Below are positions 20,922 to 35,737 of a DNA stretch of 64,000 bases, one piece after another. The position numbers and the translations under genes were made by a program. Position 1 is the stretch's first letter; every line of letters begins with the position of its first letter. The notes beneath the pieces were generated by a model. That model ran no database searches. It was given only the letters and a program-made list of their open reading frames with translations, and had not been told where the DNA came from. The stretch comes from Deltaproteobacteria bacterium (GTDB lineage Bacteria; Desulfobacterota; Desulfobulbia; Desulfobulbales; JAJRZW01), in contig JAJRZW010000008.1 in NCBI GenBank assembly GCA_024275015.1, positions 1 through 64,000 of the forward strand, written 5' to 3'.

Positions 20922-22145
20922 TTACTTGCGGCCCGCTTCCCTTGCCATCCTTTCGGCCTCGGCCTTTATTTCGACCAGGTCCTTCTTCATCTCCGCGAGA
21001 CCGTACCAGGTGACGTAGTCCGGGTTCATGTGGAAGGCCCCCTGGAAGGCGCGCATCCGGTGCTCGAGGAACATCACATACAGGGTCTGCTCGATGGGGG
21101 TCATGGCGTCGTAGAAGGTGAGTACGTCAGGATAGGCCGGTTTGCCTTCCCGGGCCTTGATGATGCCCTTACTGTAGAGATCGGCCACGATCTCAATGGC
21201 CCCGGCCATTAGCTTGTCCGCTTCCCTGATCATCATGTCGGCGTTGTGCAGGTTGGTTTTGGCGAATTTTGAGCTGTGACACCTGCTGCAGACCTTGATC
21301 ATCCGGTCGCGCTCCTTCTGCCATGACTTCCTGTCAAGCCTTGCTACCTTGCCAGCCTTGACCACGTCGAGACGGGCGGTGGGCTTGCCGTCGGGGTCAA
21401 GGACGTGCAGGGCCTTGAGAATGGTGGCGCGGTAGCCCATCCACTCCTGGTCGTCCTCTGGCAGGCGCACGGCGAGGAAACCCCAGGAGGTCGTGACGTT
21501 GTGGTTGCCGTCTTCCATGTGGCAGGTCTGGCACTTGGGGGCCCGGCCGGTGTCGCCCTCGGTCTGGTAGATGACCCCGTGTTTGGAACCGGACCACATC
21601 TCCCACTGCGGGTGGTCAAAACCCATGTGGCAGGTGCGGCAGGCCTCGGGGCGGCTGGCCTCGGCCTTGGAGAATTTGTGTCTGGTGTGGCAGGAATCGC
21701 AGGGGGAGCCGTATCCCTTGCCCTTGGTGGCGGCGTCGCGGACCCCGACCTTGTGGCAGCCGCCGCATCCTTTCAGCCCCTGGATATAGGGATGGGGCTG
21801 GATTGAGTTGGTAGGCATGGCGCTCATGGCGATCCAGGCGGCGGAGTGCTTGCCGGCCATGTACTGGTCGTGCTGCTCCTCGTGGCATTTCTGGCAGGTC
21901 TTTTCGGTGGGCAGCTCGACCTTGTCGACATCGGCCTTGCTCTTGTGGGCGCTGCCGTGGCAGTCGGCGCAGTCGACATCGCCGCTCTTACCCATGGCGC
22001 CGGAGAAAAAGTCTTTGACGATGTTGGGGGTGATTTTTTTGTGGCAGGCCACGCAGACGCTGTCTGCCGCCAGGGCCGGCGCGGCCATGAATATGAGCAG
22101 GGCCGCGCAGAGCCCCAGCGCTTTTGAGATTTTTTTCTGTTTCAT
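20922..22145 (-). CDS. octahaem c-type cytochrome, hydroxylamine oxidoreductase-like
   Basis: The 407-residue protein has a cleaved Sec signal (about 1-26, ending APALAAD) and eight CXXCH haem-binding motifs: CVACH, CADCH, CQKCH, CGGCH, CDSCH, CRTCH, CQTCH and CSRCH. Number, spacing and the tyrosine-rich C-terminal part (HMNPDYVTWYGLAEM) fit the octahaem HAO-like family. Members of this family in non-nitrifiers are thought to reduce nitrite, NO or hydroxylamine rather than oxidise hydroxylamine. Whether the P460 cross-link tyrosine is present cannot be decided by eye. ATG follows AAGGAGGG. It is the last gene of a minus-strand run with ferredoxin, haemerythrin-PAS and cupin genes. Confidence 0.85.
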   Translation of the reverse strand: MKQKKISKALGLCAALLIFMAAPALAADSVCVACHKKITPNIVKDFFSGAMGKSGDVDCADCHGSAHKSKADVDKVELPTEKTCQKCHEEQHDQYMAGKHSAAWIAMSAMPTNSIQPHPYIQGLKGCGGCHKVGVRDAATKGKGYGSPCDSCHTRHKFSKAEASRPEACRTCHMGFDHPQWEMWSGSKHGVIYQTEGDTGRAPKCQTCHMEDGNHNVTTSWGFLAVRLPEDDQEWMGYRATILKALHVLDPDGKPTARLDVVKAGKVARLDRKSWQKERDRMIKVCSRCHSSKFAKTNLHNADMMIREADKLMAGAIEIVADLYSKGIIKAREGKPAYPDVLTFYDAMTPIEQTLYVMFLEHRMRAFQGAFHMNPDYVTWYGLAEMKKDLVEIKAEAERMAREAGRK

Positions 22146-30903: not shown

Positions 30904-31067
30904 TCGGGAACTGTCTCCGGACTCTGCCTCTTCTTCAAAAAACTTTGTAAACGCCAATTAGCCCCCATCTTATCATCACTCTTCTGAGCTGTCATTATCC
31001 CTCCGTCAAGCAACAGATAACGGAGGACAAAGATGCAAACATGAAATCACGGTCACGACATGGCCAT

Positions 31068-31222
31068 AACAGACTGTTGAAAAAGCCGTCCTGGCTTTTT
31101 CCACTCCCGGTTGGCCAAAACAAGTTCCGGCCAACCTTTCGATTTCACCGGGGTTTTCAACCCGGCAAAATCGGCGGCGCGGACATCAGCCGCGACCAGC
31201 CCGTTTTTCAGCGGGCTGCTAA
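31068..31222 (+). repeat. family A multi-hairpin repeat, copy A6
   Basis: This full forward copy is over 90% identical to A5 only 160 bp away, in the same orientation (TAACAGACTGTTGAAAAAGC ... CAGCGGGCTGCTAA). Two close direct copies could recombine. Confidence 0.9.
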
Positions 31223-31269: not shown

Positions 31270-31656
31270 TCAATGGTGACAGTTGCCGCTGCCGGTGCAT
31301 AACTGTCCCCGCGCAAACATGGATAATTTGCCGGCGATAAATGCCTCGATGGCAGAGTTTACGTCGGGGTAGCTGTTAAGGTCGGCAAAGTAGACATCCA
31401 TGCCGAATTGCTGCATCTTCTGGAATGGTCCCGGGCCCATGCCCGCGGCAATCATGGCGTTAACTCCCTGTTCGGCCAGCATGGCCACCGGTTTCATGCA
31501 GCCCCCGGCACCATGGGCGATGTTTGCCACCGTGCGGATGTTTACGGCTTGGTTGTTTTCAACGTCAAACAGGGTGAAAACCGGGCAGTGTCCGAAGTGG
31601 TCGGAACGATCGCCTTCTTCATTTTCAGATGGTATTGCCAGGGTAATTTTATTCAT
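31270..31656 (-). CDS. NifX/NifB-type Fe-Mo cofactor-binding-domain protein (orange-protein-like)
   Basis: The 128-residue protein has the dinitrogenase iron-molybdenum cofactor fold: RSDHFGHCPVFTLFD near residue 17-31, AHGAGGCMKP with a cysteine, and IAAGMGPGPFQKMQQFG. The C-terminus adds a Cys/His-rich tail (QLCTGSGNCHH) that could bind metal. Relatives bind metal-sulfur clusters, including the Mo-Cu orange protein (ORP) of sulfate reducers, which is also driven by sigma-54. ATG follows AAGGAGC. It is the last gene of the 31.3-34.0 kb minus-strand cassette. Confidence 0.85.
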   Translation of the reverse strand: MNKITLAIPSENEEGDRSDHFGHCPVFTLFDVENNQAVNIRTVANIAHGAGGCMKPVAMLAEQGVNAMIAAGMGPGPFQKMQQFGMDVYFADLNSYPDVNSAIEAFIAGKLSMFARGQLCTGSGNCHH

Positions 31657-31692
31657 TGTAATGCTCCTTGAAAATAATATTTATGTAGATGC

Positions 31693-31761
31693 TGACCGGA
31701 ACTTGTTTTGGCCAACCGGGAGTTGAAAAAGGCATGACGGCTTTTTCAACAGTCCGTTAAG
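31693..31761 (-). repeat. family A partial copy A7, fused into family B
   Basis: Only the H2 half-stem (GGAACTTGTTTTGGCCAACC) and the H1 hairpin (GTTGAAAAAGGC..GGCTTTTTCAAC) remain, ending CAGTCCGTTAAG. The next base begins the middle of a family B element, with TTAAG shared by both families at the join. Confidence 0.8.
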
Positions 31762-31870
31762 AAATCCCGCATGTTTGAGGTCATAGCCCGAGTTCTGGGT
31801 TTCAGCAGCCCGCCGTCCGGGGTCCGGAAATCGCCGTTTTCTCCCCGGAGCGGGGACTTACGAGACCATC
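31762..31870. repeat. family B partial copy B4 (right half)
   Basis: It starts at the internal AAATCCCGCATG and continues through GAGTTCTGGGTTTCAGCAGC to the terminal GGGGACTTACGAGACCATC. The left terminal half is missing and family A copy A7 sits in its place. Confidence 0.82.
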
Positions 31871-32135
31871 CTGCTTATCTCGCTGAAACTTTATTTATAT
31901 GTAGAACCATGCCCTCTGGGCGTTGTTCTTGCTTGCTTATCCTGCCGCCAGCCCAGGTGATCACCCGGTTCAGGTGTCTGACCATGTCGGCATCACAGAT
32001 GGCCTTAAAGGATATATCTTCCCCGTCTTGCCCAAGACGGCTCCGTATATCACGGATGCCGCGTCAGCAATGGCCGCGATAGTCTATTATGTCTTGAGTT
32101 TCATCCTTCATGTTTTAGCTTTTCACACTTCACAC
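31871..32135. other. gap between NifX-like and polyferredoxin genes, no gene recognised
   Basis: About 265 bp lie between repeat B4 and the stop codon of the polyferredoxin gene. A plus-strand frame is open here and continues antisense to the next gene, but it has no ribosome-binding site and no recognisable similarity. A short minus-strand frame (about 38 codons) is likewise unconvincing. It may be a decayed gene of the cassette. Confidence 0.4.
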
Positions 32136-32966
32136 TTATATCCTTATATCCGTCCCGATAAATTTACACTTAACCCTGGCGCATTCCAGGCAGCGCGTGC
32201 ATTGACTGTGGTCCGGAGTCTTCACCGGGTTAATTCCCTGGGGGCAGGCATCTTTACATCGGCCACAGTCTACACAGCCATCCTGGTCGATATTGACAAA
32301 TACCCCGGAAATCCTGTTGAACAGGCCTAAAAAGCCGCCAATTGGACAGAGCATCGTGCAGAAAGGGCGCTCGATGCAGACAGCAGCCGTCAGCACGATG
32401 GCAAGGATACTTGACGAGGCAATGGCCCATGCTCCCTCTGGGGTCTTGAAGAACAAGGGGATCCCCGCCGCCTGTTGCCAGAGACGATTGATGGTGCCGG
32501 GAGGGCAGATGTCGCAGAAGGCCATATGACGGCTATAATAAGGCAGCAAGATAACCATGCCGATAAATATCGGTAGTCTTAGATGCCCTGCCCAGCCGGG
32601 CAGTTTAAACTTTTTGACCGGGATCCTGGTCAGCAGATCCTGGAGAAAACCAAAGGGACAGAGCCAGCCGCAGCCCATGGTGCCGAAAAGAGCGCCAAAG
32701 AGGATGAGTACCGCAAAGCTAGCCAGGGCGGTGGAGGCAAGTTTGGAGTTAATACTGCCAAGCATACCCATGGATGCCATAATCGCGCCGCGTTCTATGA
32801 GGATAAGCGGACAGGCAAAGGTGGAGAGAGAGCAGTTGGAGCATTGCAGGTAGCCGCAGGGAATAAAGCGTAACAATGAGAAGACATAGGCGTTTGACAG
32901 GAGTAGTGCCAGGGTCTGTGCCGTCCGGCGGTTTTTGATGAATTGAAATATTTTTTCTTGCATCAT
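32136..32966 (-). CDS. NapH/NosR-like membrane polyferredoxin
   Basis: The 276-residue membrane protein has about four to five helices. Conserved cysteine motifs CGWLCPFGFLQDL and CTMLCPIGGFLGLF lie at helix ends, as in the NapH/NosR/CcoG group. The C-terminus holds two 4Fe-4S sites: CVDCGRCKDACPQGI and CTRCLECARVKC. It probably passes electrons from the quinone pool toward a partner. An extra N-terminal CGYLQCSNCSLSTFACP is a further possible metal site. ATG ATG at 32961-32966 lies 3 bp after the stop of the preceding small gene, so translation is coupled. Confidence 0.87.
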   Translation of the reverse strand: MMQEKIFQFIKNRRTAQTLALLLSNAYVFSLLRFIPCGYLQCSNCSLSTFACPLILIERGAIMASMGMLGSINSKLASTALASFAVLILFGALFGTMGCGWLCPFGFLQDLLTRIPVKKFKLPGWAGHLRLPIFIGMVILLPYYSRHMAFCDICPPGTINRLWQQAAGIPLFFKTPEGAWAIASSSILAIVLTAAVCIERPFCTMLCPIGGFLGLFNRISGVFVNIDQDGCVDCGRCKDACPQGINPVKTPDHSQCTRCLECARVKCKFIGTDIRI

Positions 32967-32969
32967 TAA

Positions 32970-33197
32970 TTACCGGCGGCGCGTCCATGCGCCGCTAACA
33001 GCCCGTTTTTTTAACTGACTGTCAGGTGTTGGCCCTGTGCGCCCATGTCGCATGGGAAAACGTCCGTTGCGCAGCATGGATTTCATGTCAAGGGCCGGGG
33101 GCCTGCGGCTGGTTTTTGGTTTGAGGGTGTATCCGAGTGTAAAAGAGGATATCGCCAGCAAAACTACCCAGAATAATTTGAATATCTTCTTGCTCAT
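32970..33197 (-). CDS. small single-pass membrane protein, C-terminus supplied by a repeat
   Basis: The product of about 75 residues has one N-terminal hydrophobic segment (IFKLFWVVLLAISSFTLGYT) after MSKK, then a basic tail. The last 15-18 codons (from about QLKKRAVSGAW) are encoded by family A copy A8, so the natural C-terminus has been replaced or extended. The stop lies 3 bp from the polyferredoxin start, which argues that it is translated in the operon. I do not recognise the family. Confidence 0.55.
   Translation of the reverse strand: MSKKIFKLFWVVLLAISSFTLGYTLKPKTSRRPPALDMKSMLRNGRFPMRHGRTGPTPDSQLKKRAVSGAWTRRR
32972..33029 (+). repeat. family A partial copy A8
   Basis: Only hairpins H4 and H5 are present (GGCGGCGCGTCCATGCGCCGC and CAGCCCGTTTTTTTAACTG). 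It overlaps the 3' end of the small membrane-protein gene, in antisense to it. Confidence 0.78.
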
Positions 33198-33204
33198 AAT
33201 AATT

Positions 33205-33274
33205 GATGGTCTCGTGACAAGTCCCGCGGAGGCGTCTTCGGTGATTTCCGGAAAAAGTGCCGGGCGGCGGGGTG
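33205..33274. repeat. family B partial copy B5 (left end)
   Basis: It begins with a near-consensus terminus GATGGTCTCGTGACAAGTCC and continues through GCGTCTTCGGTGATTTCCGG to GGGCGGCGGGGTG, then stops. The right half is absent. It lies 8 bp upstream of the small membrane-protein start, on the 5' side of that gene. Confidence 0.82.
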
Positions 33275-33343
33275 AAATTTCCGCCGGAGTGAAAATCAGG
33301 CAAAAAACGCATGAATTCAGATAAATACATACTCGGTTGCCAC

Positions 33344-33442
33344 TAACAGACTGTTGAAAAAGCCGTCCTGGTTTTTTCAACCCGGTGAAATCGGCGGCGC
33401 GTCCGTGCGCCGCGACCAGCCCGTTTTTCAACGGGCTGCTAA
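33344..33442 (+). repeat. family A copy A9 with H2/H3 deleted
   Basis: TAACAGACTGTTGAAAAAGC leads directly into CCCGGTGAAATCGGCGGCGC and ends CAACGGGCTGCTAA. H2 and the left arm of H3 are missing, giving a 99-bp form. Confidence 0.85.
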
Positions 33443-33495
33443 GCCGTCACGGATTCAGGTTACTGAAACCGTGAGTCCGCTTTTGTTTGAGATAC

Positions 33496-33951
33496 TTACA
33501 TGCTTTGCACTATGGCATGTTCCTCCTTGCCAACCTTGCCCATCATGGTCTTTACTGAACCGCTGAGGAATTTACTCATCATACCGGTGTTGAGTTTGGA
33601 GATTTTCACCTTGCCGTTCTCTTCGAAGATGCCAAATCGGCAGGGCATCATGGCGGCAAAATGCGGTTGGTCTTCTAGTACTTGTTTGGCGTACTCGGGT
33701 TTACATAATTCGATGATATGGACGCGGTTTTTGACATGCACACCTTTTTTGGCGGTCATGGCGTTGACATCGTGCTGGCCGGGAATTCCCCATTTTGAGT
33801 CTTTGATTGCCGCTTCGGCTCGCTTTACTGTTTCTTCAAAATCATATTCTGAATCAAAGGTCTGCACCATCTGGTTACGAAAAAACCAGATCATTACCAA
33901 GACCATAAAGGTTGCTCCGCCGAGGAAGCCTGCGCTTGCTGTTAGTACCAT
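33496..33951 (-). CDS. DUF302-domain protein with membrane anchor
   Basis: The product has 151 residues. The first 25 form a membrane anchor (SAGFLGGATFMVLVMIWFF). The rest is a DUF302 domain with DFEETVKRAEAAIKDSKWG, the HIIELCKPEYAKQVL stretch, and MMPCRFGIFEENGKVKISK. DUF302 proteins are soluble or tethered alpha/beta proteins of unknown activity, often linked to redox or metal handling. ATG 33951 follows AAGGAGAAATAAA. It is the first gene after a sigma-54 promoter at 34210-34226. Confidence 0.85.
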   Translation of the reverse strand: MVLTASAGFLGGATFMVLVMIWFFRNQMVQTFDSEYDFEETVKRAEAAIKDSKWGIPGQHDVNAMTAKKGVHVKNRVHIIELCKPEYAKQVLEDQPHFAAMMPCRFGIFEENGKVKISKLNTGMMSKFLSGSVKTMMGKVGKEEHAIVQSM

Positions 33952-33974
33952 TTTATTTCTCCTTGTTAATCGTT

Positions 33975-34156
33975 GTTGGCCTCGCAACAAGTCCCTGCGG
34001 AGGCGTCTTCGGTGGTTTCCGGAAAAAGCGCCTGGCGGCGGGATGGGTTAAGAAATCCCGCATGCTTGATGGCTTAGCCTGAGTTCGGGATTTCAGCATC
34101 CCGCCGTCCGGAAATTGCCGTTTCAGGCCTAAGCGGGGAATTATTGCGACTTCATC
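33975..34156. repeat. family B element, copy B6, in the leader of the DUF302 cassette
   Basis: This 182-bp copy has left end GTTGGCCTCGCAACAAGTCC and right end GGGGAATTATTGCGACTTCATC. The inner part is slightly shortened (CATCCCGCCGTCCGG). It lies between the sigma-54 promoter and the DUF302 ribosome-binding site, so it is transcribed as a folded 5' leader. Confidence 0.85.
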
Positions 34157-34209
34157 TTGGTTTGCCTGGTAAAAATATTCCGGGCTGTTCTTTTGTTAAT
34201 GGCTGCCAA

Positions 34210-34226
34210 AGCAACTTTGGTGCCAA
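34210..34226 (-). promoter_or_regulatory. sigma-54 (-24/-12) promoter
   Basis: The minus strand reads TTGGCACCAAAGTTGCT. The GG of the -24 element and GC of the -12 element are exactly 10 bp apart, matching the consensus TTGGCAC-N5-TTGCW at every strongly conserved position. It points toward the DUF302, small membrane, polyferredoxin and NifX-like genes. The activator gene transcribed in the opposite direction begins at 34394. Confidence 0.85.
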
Positions 34227-34248
34227 TGGTAACCGTAATGTCTTGGTG

Positions 34249-34373
34249 CTTGTTAACTTCCTGTAATGGCGTATAAACCGGACTTGTAGTTTTTTATGTG
34301 GATAAAGATATAAAGGCGCTTGGTTTGCAAAATGTTGCTATGGTGTTAATTATGTTAATTAACGGTTAACAAG
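34249..34373. promoter_or_regulatory. candidate activator-binding sites (inverted CTTGTTAAC pair)
   Basis: CTTGTTAAC at 34249-34257 and its exact reverse complement GTTAACAAG at 34365-34373 lie upstream of the sigma-54 promoter. TTAAT-rich sequence between them (34345-34362) includes GTTAATTATGTTAATTAAC. The distal site is about 140 bp from the -24 box, the usual distance for a sigma-54 enhancer. It also sits just before the activator gene, suggesting autoregulation. The site assignment is inferred. Confidence 0.4.
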
Positions 34374-34393
34374 TAGTTGGCGGGGTATATGTC

Positions 34394-35737
34394 ATGCCGT
34401 TTTCGTTGGATACAAATGTCTGGAAGATAATCGTTAACACCATGCAAGAAGGCTTGATGGTGGTTGACAAGGAAGGCCAAATCGTTTTTGCCAATAAGGC
34501 ATTTGAGGAATTGTTTGGCTACACCAACGCCGAGCTTGCCGGTAAGAGTTGTGATGTGTTTCAGTGTGACCGCTGTTTTTCGGCCCGGGCCAGCGGCCTG
34601 GATAAATACTGCGCACTTTTTAAGGATGAAGAGATAAGGAGTTCTGAATGTGTCTTTCGTCGTAAGGACGCTACCCCTCTGCATGTTTTAAAGAATGCCG
34701 CCGTTATCCGTGACGCCGAAGGTCAGGTGATCGGCGGGGTGGAAACCCTTACGGATTTAAGTCGGGTGCTGGCTGGAGAGGAGATAATCGCCTCCCTTAA
34801 AGAAGAATTACAGGCCAGCCGCAAGGATTTTGGTGATATTGTCGGGCGATCCGAGGCCATGCGGCAGGTATTTGATCTGGCCGCCAGTGCTGCATCCTCC
34901 GAGGCGCCGGTGGTGGTTTACGGTGAATCCGGGACAGGAAAGGAACTCCTGGCCCATGCCCTGCATCGGCAAAGCGGTCGGCAGGCGGGGCCATTTATCA
35001 AGGTTAATTGCGCCGCCCTAAATGAGAATCTTCTGGAAAGTGAACTCTTTGGGCATGTAAAGGGGGCCTTTACCGGCGCCGACCAGCAACGGATTGGCCG
35101 CTTTGAGGCGGCCAATCGCGGCAGTATTTTTCTCGACGAGATTGGCGATCTACCCTTGACCACCCAGACCAAATTATTACGGGTTTTGCAGGAAAAGGAG
35201 ATTGAGCGGGTTGGGGATAATCGCACCATTGAGATAGATGTGCGGATCATTACCGCGACCCACAAGGATCTGGTGGAATTGATTGGCCAGGGCCAGTTTC
35301 GGGAGGATCTTTTTTATCGTATAAATGTAATACCCATTAACCTGCCGCCCCTGCGCCGGCGCCAGGCTGATATCCCACTGCTGGTGGAAAAATTTATCAA
35401 GGTTGTGGCGGGTAAATCTGGCAAGAATATTAGCGGTATCAGTGACGCCGCCCTGGATATAATGATCAATTACCCTTGGCCGGGTAATGTCCGGGAGTTG
35501 ATTAATGCCATCGAATATGCCTTTGTGGTCTGCCCGCGTGGCCGGGTCAAGGTCGAGCACCTTCCCCAGCATTTGTGTACTGCCCAGGTTGCCCGTGGCA
35601 ATCCCGTGTCCAGCGGTCGTAGGGCCAGGGTGCGCCAAGCCTTGGAGGAATCCGGTTGGAACCGTACTAAGGCCGCCGCTGTTCTGGGGGTGAGTCGGGT
35701 TACTTTATGGAAATGGATGAAGAAGTATTCCCTGTGA
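34394..35737 (+). CDS. PAS-domain sigma-54-dependent transcriptional activator
   Basis: The 447-residue protein has an N-terminal PAS domain (about 10-115) that carries an unusual cysteine set: CDVFQCDRC, a Cys about 17 residues later, and one more. These look able to hold an Fe-S cluster, haem or other metal. The AAA+ domain (about 150-380) has GESGTGKE, intact GAFTGA and FLDEIGDL. A Fis-type helix-turn-helix ends the protein (RTKAAAVLGVSRVTLWKW). It lacks a receiver domain, so the PAS domain is the input. It is divergent from the DUF302 cassette and separated by a sigma-54 promoter it presumably controls. Confidence 0.9.
   Translation: MPFSLDTNVWKIIVNTMQEGLMVVDKEGQIVFANKAFEELFGYTNAELAGKSCDVFQCDRCFSARASGLDKYCALFKDEEIRSSECVFRRKDATPLHVLKNAAVIRDAEGQVIGGVETLTDLSRVLAGEEIIASLKEELQASRKDFGDIVGRSEAMRQVFDLAASAASSEAPVVVYGESGTGKELLAHALHRQSGRQAGPFIKVNCAALNENLLESELFGHVKGAFTGADQQRIGRFEAANRGSIFLDEIGDLPLTTQTKLLRVLQEKEIERVGDNRTIEIDVRIITATHKDLVELIGQGQFREDLFYRINVIPINLPPLRRRQADIPLLVEKFIKVVAGKSGKNISGISDAALDIMINYPWPGNVRELINAIEYAFVVCPRGRVKVEHLPQHLCTAQVARGNPVSSGRRARVRQALEESGWNRTKAAAVLGVSRVTLWKWMKKYSL

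Follow-up and report, generated by a model that had tools for sequence, protein, structure and literature searches.

What are four minus-strand genes, encoding a NifX-like protein, a NapH-like membrane polyferredoxin, a small single-pass membrane protein and a DUF302 protein, doing together behind a sigma-54 promoter and divergent from the gene of a sigma-54 enhancer-binding activator? The question is raised by a 64-kb stretch of contig JAJRZW010000008.1 of a member of the Deltaproteobacteria (hereafter "the window", meaning the whole stretch that was analyzed). Open reading frames (ORFs) and Pfam matches confirmed the five genes, and the families that an initial annotation had named for the four minus-strand genes were borne out, as was the C-x5-CHH tail that it had noticed on the NifX-like protein. 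No published description of the four-gene cassette was found in literature searches. We read the set, with slightly less than even confidence, as a redox-responsive membrane electron-delivery module under its sigma-54 activator; compared with related genomes, the window set is best described as a pared-down mosaic of a sulfur-associated redox module that recurs there, real but undescribed and of putative function. Three independent lines argue that the parts belong together: a shared activator and promoter, shared gene neighborhoods, and a strict pairing of the small protein with the polyferredoxin.

The promoter that had been called canonical is an exact match to TGGCAC-N5-TTGCW, the only one within the window, and its leader extends to the DUF302 start. 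Across 920,868 strand-bases, comprising the window and the relatives' loci, exact matches numbered four (the window and the related genomes G064, G077 and G020), and all four sit between an orthologous activator and its divergent target, directed at that target (chance probability by region length ∼2 × 10−8; this estimate, like the two given below for DUF302 neighborhoods and activator co-presence, is rough and post hoc). The 442-bp intergenic region contains 10 GTTAA/TTAAC half-sites where 0.94 would be expected (maximum of 5 in 500 shuffles). Such clusters also crowd most intergenic regions of orthologous activators, and are few or absent upstream of polyferredoxin and DUF302 operons that have no linked activator. 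Control of the promoter by sigma-54 and the cognate activator, as initially proposed, is thus supported at the level of sequence.

The activator itself is conserved, and its usual target is a cytochrome. Full-length orthologues (51 to 65% identical), identified through a search for relatives of the PAS domain, were present in six genomes of the same order (G002, G005, G016, G049, G064 and G077), where they are divergent from an octahaem cytochrome of the TIGR04315 type (605.8 bits against a cut-off of 375 in G064; copies in the other genomes 62 to 75% identical to that of G064). Members of the octahaem cytochrome family reduce tetrathionate, nitrite and hydroxylamine. In G020, the orthologue faces a NifX-like gene, with the exact sigma-54 site 76 bp ahead of it, and the encoded protein is 45% identical to that of the window and ends in CTNNGTCHH. 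The CxxxxCxxC cluster recognized earlier in the PAS domain is part of a C-x4-C-x2-C-x11-C pattern followed by a fifth cysteine, which was kept in all 14 aligned proteins with minor changes of spacing (the fourth cysteine lies ∼10 to 11 residues after the third, the fifth further on). PAS domains that hold a [4Fe-4S] cluster on four cysteines exist, as in NreB (PMC4601167), and by analogy the PAS cysteines of the window activator may carry a metal or Fe-S center. The activator was also commoner where a polyferredoxin orthologue was present (3 of 6 genomes versus 11 of 145; P = 0.006). By arrangement, the closest described regulon would be DVU3142/ohcBAC of Desulfovibrio, which comprises a sigma-54 activator, an octahaem cytochrome and an iron-sulfur membrane protein, and of which D. 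alaskensis retains the iron-sulfur gene only (PMC4641369). In both loci, a single-component activator is transcribed away from a redox operon that sigma-54 drives, whereas the window operon lacks the octahaem cytochrome and has DUF302, the small protein and the NifX-like protein in addition.

The small protein and the polyferredoxin form the most constant pair. Polyferredoxin orthologues (45 to 66% identical), found by an alignment-based scan of contigs, were rare, occurring in six other genomes among 145 relatives, in one Nitrospirota metagenome-assembled genome (MAG; 54% identical) and in at least 2 more of 395 genomes sampled across the phylum, the last figure being a lower bound since only the best six candidates per genome were scored in that profile search. 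A small single-pass protein of 45 to 80 residues with an FxLGYxLKP-type motif, or a close variant of it, lay directly upstream in 10 of 10 loci, those of the window and the Nitrospirota MAG included; in the window the two genes are 3 bp apart. The W.CPFG word occurs 124 times across all loci (duplicate loci counted), and only in orthologues did the small-protein motif lie upstream. The polyferredoxin of G064 has no W.CPFG word, and its pairing was established separately from the motif search; that gene (L078:6506-7146) is broken by an internal deletion of ∼80 residues and a change of frame, reflecting either decay or an assembly error. No Pfam or NCBIfam family covers the small protein. The polyferredoxin shares membrane helices, CxxxCP motifs and C-terminal ferredoxin clusters with the NapH/MauN membrane ferredoxins (TIGR02163), but scores 41.9 bits against a cut-off of 213.05, has no NapG or NapC alongside and keeps its fixed small partner. 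The additional N-terminal cysteines remarked on in the initial annotation are present; as a special trait of this protein they were rejected, since they occur throughout the wider NapH-like family. In G014, the pair is followed by an FeS and DUF3786 protein (L073:4928-5728).

Partial versions of the set recur in relatives, where genes were called by a simple script and start sites are approximate. Co-occurrence was the check proposed at the outset: G064 has the activator, octahaem cytochrome, DUF302, SBF/ACR3-like transporter, small protein and broken polyferredoxin, G053 has the small protein, polyferredoxin, DUF302, transporter and NifX together, and G020 has the activator facing NifX. Neither outcome that had been named as refuting the initial proposal was encountered. 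DUF302 genes neighbored polyferredoxins far more often than expected from a simple gene-density model (P ∼ 3 × 10−7). A separate operon of DUF302, transporter and NifX, often with DUF134, is widespread in the order. In five of the loci read (L228, L229, L230, L231 and L233) it adjoins dsrABD (profile-confirmed in L228 and assigned by sequence likeness in the others), and most of these loci also carry a gene resembling CoA-disulfide reductase. No description of a DUF302/SBF (ACR3-like) transporter/CHH-tailed NifX/DUF134 operon beside dsrABD was found in the papers searched. The window shares with these operons DUF302 and the NifX class, and differs in lacking the transporter and the dsr neighborhood and in the membrane tether of its DUF302 protein, which is encoded by the only DUF302 gene of the genome (51.2 bits to PF03625; gathering score 23). 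The closest relative of this tethered form (66% identical; G010 contig C76) is flanked by a thioredoxin-like gene (called by sequence, under the Pfam reporting limit) and a DsbD_TM/CcdA-like gene of the membrane reductant carrier type. DUF302 genes have been described in sox clusters, and have also been likened to a gene in the sulfide:quinone oxidoreductase (sqr) operon of Synechocystis (PMC5037610, PMC5061849, PMC11034169).

Taken together, these observations are consistent with a scheme in which a metal or Fe-S center in the PAS domain would change state, whereupon the activator, bound at GTTAAC sites, would open the sigma-54 promoter; of this scheme, what the DNA itself shows is the gene set, its promoter and a cluster resembling an operator. 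The polyferredoxin and its obligatory small partner would then connect an acceptor, by electron transfer, with the quinone pool or with a cytoplasmic ferredoxin. The co-regulated periplasmic octahaem reductase would be one likely candidate for this acceptor in relatives; in the window genome, electrons may instead reach the CHH-tailed NifX-like protein and DUF302, which would handle a sulfur or metal-sulfur species reductively. Several points weigh against this scheme. Neither the window operon nor the window genome (assembly 93% complete) yielded an octahaem cytochrome of the TIGR04315 family with a protein query that recovered its positive controls, and no transporter orthologue was found in the genome. 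Substrate, metal binding and electron partner are all putative, and the predicted structure of the polyferredoxin (moderate confidence) matched nothing in the PDB. Four of the 10 polyferredoxin loci show no other partner within the stretch of DNA examined (two of them on short contigs). All four window genes likely form one operon, yet gaps of 299 bp (DUF302/small protein) and 480 bp (polyferredoxin/NifX), both holding repeat copies, make the co-transcription of all four less certain. A bolder extension, which we consider doubtful, is that the small protein and polyferredoxin constitute an undescribed two-subunit conduit feeding the NifX-like/DUF302 pair, in a new reductive pathway for sulfur or metal-sulfur species that would be linked to dissimilatory sulfite reduction and turned on by a sigma-54 activator with an Fe-S-sensing PAS domain. 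The features of the locus are given in Table 1.

Table 1. Genes, control elements and repeat copies of the cassette locus (window coordinates)
Feature	Position	Strand	Description
NifX-like gene	31656-31270	minus	PF02579, 66.3 bits; tail CTGSGNCHH (C-x5-CHH)
NapH-like membrane polyferredoxin	32966-32136	minus	Fer4_5 (63 bits) and Fer4; N-terminal Cys motif, two CxxxCP motifs, C-terminal ferredoxin clusters
Small single-pass membrane protein	33197-32970	minus	Motif WVxLLxISSFxLGYxLKP
DUF302 protein	33951-33496	minus	PF03625; one N-terminal hydrophobic helix; ATG at 33951
Sigma-54 −24/−12 promoter	34225-34210	minus	TGGCACCAAAGTTGCT; exact TGGCAC-N5-TTGCW
GTTAA/TTAAC half-site cluster by activator start	34342-34372		Probable activator-binding region; extra GTTAAC at 34252-34257
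Sigma-54 enhancer-binding activator	34394-35737	plus	Cys-rich PAS, AAA+ Sigma54_activat (242 bits), Fis-type HTH
Dispersed repeat copy, DUF302/small-protein gap	33340-33442		15 matching places in window
Dispersed repeat copy, polyferredoxin/NifX gap	31690-31882		13 matching places in window
Further dispersed repeat copy	31060-31222		Others besides in window

Could the cassette instead be an orp-type metal-cluster system, in which the NifX-like protein would carry a Mo-Cu-S or related cluster, assembled or repaired with electrons from the polyferredoxin and with DUF302 as an accessory? The initial annotation had regarded it as a variant of the orp operons with the ATPases replaced, and there is a resemblance to orp/DVU2106 of D. 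vulgaris (PMC3897727) in the NifX fold (PF02579) and the divergent sigma-54 activator; the conserved Cys/His tail also speaks for this reading. The best NCBIfam match of the NifX-like protein is moreover the C-terminal domain of MrpORP, albeit far under the cut-off (48.6 bits versus 450). However, its matches place it no nearer to ORP (2wfb, E = 2.3 × 10−4) than to generic archaeal and Thermotoga PF02579 proteins, of which 1rdu, 1eo1 and 2yx6 all matched better. Unlike orp operons, the locus has a polyferredoxin, a small protein and DUF302 in place of Mrp-type ATPases, and no Mrp/NBP35-type ATPase gene was seen among the ORFs of the 27- to 41-kb region of the window. The sequence class of the protein also points elsewhere: it is 38 to 50% identical to the NifX proteins of the DUF302-transporter-NifX operons and shares their CxGxG-CHH tail or a close variant of it, and on these alignments it is a member of their CHH-tailed class, whose genes accompany DUF302 and the ACR3-like transporter. 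Three findings weaken the orp reading, which now seems unlikely: the activator usually serves an octahaem cytochrome, no Mrp ATPase lies near, and other proteins match the NifX-like protein better than ORP does. The proposed replacement of ATPases found no support; the cassette may nonetheless assemble or repair a metal-sulfur center reductively, as was suggested at the same time. The only other PF02579 matches of the window genome lie in a nif cluster on contig C27 (L039), one of them being NifB. These were considered as a MrpORP locus and rejected, as they belong to that cluster; its small PF02579 protein is only 18% identical to the window NifX.

It seems similarly improbable that the locus is a detoxification or resistance module (against arsenite, nitrite or a related stress) of which just the redox half survives in the window. 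In its favor, the co-occurring transporter (SBF, PF01758) is related to ACR3, relatives carry the TIGR04315 cytochrome, and likeness of a DUF302 protein to a potential arsenic oxidase gene of Agrobacterium has been published. However, the transporter reaches 84.6 bits against an equivalog cut-off of 282.8 for acr3 (TIGR00832), no arsR, arsC or aio genes were seen nearby, and the operons of DUF302, transporter and NifX adjoin dsrABD rather than ars genes. Elsewhere in the window, positions 20922-22145 encode a multihaem cytochrome weakly similar to hydrazine dehydrogenase/HAO-type proteins (87.7 bits; cut-off 900).

The repeats mentioned above are copies of an intergenic element of ∼155 bp (87 to 94% alike) that is dispersed in the window genome and also stands at several of its contig ends. 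The window has more than a dozen copies and the genome at least 40, a count taken from the best 40 of 400 first-look candidates, and the element may be far more numerous. A fragment of the repeat (32974-33010) makes up the 3′ end of the small-protein gene, giving a repeat-derived C-terminus (QLKKRAVSGAWTRRR) unlike that of every relative. Together with the missing cytochrome and transporter, with the broken polyferredoxin of G064, with D. alaskensis, reported with only ohcB left under its DVU3142 orthologue (PMC4641369), and with a genome of the same genus (G001) in which no DUF302, activator or polyferredoxin orthologue was found, these repeats might indicate a decaying remnant, its activator having once served a since-lost octahaem cytochrome and repeats and gene loss having left a loose, possibly non-functional set, but five intact reading frames, key cysteines all kept, a perfect promoter and the 66% identity of DUF302 to its G010 relative make this the least probable reading of all.

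The locus is most economically read as an electron conduit in the membrane, controlled by a redox-type sensor and tied to sulfur metabolism. Its patchy distribution resembles, on present genome comparisons, that of a horizontally moved or often-lost unit. From dsrABD in relatives of the same order, the organism may be taken as a sulfate or sulfur metabolizer of the Desulfobacterota, and from the nif cluster with NifB in its genome as a probable diazotroph. That small protein and polyferredoxin are so strictly paired suggests an electron-transfer complex in the membrane, unnamed in the families searched, and the position of the recurring DUF302-transporter-NifX operon beside dsrABD suggests that dissimilatory sulfur metabolism has an accessory that has gone unrecognized. 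Four families about which little is understood (DUF302, CHH-tailed NifX-like proteins, a clade of NapH-like polyferredoxins and a new small membrane protein) are here joined in a defined regulon with a known type of promoter.

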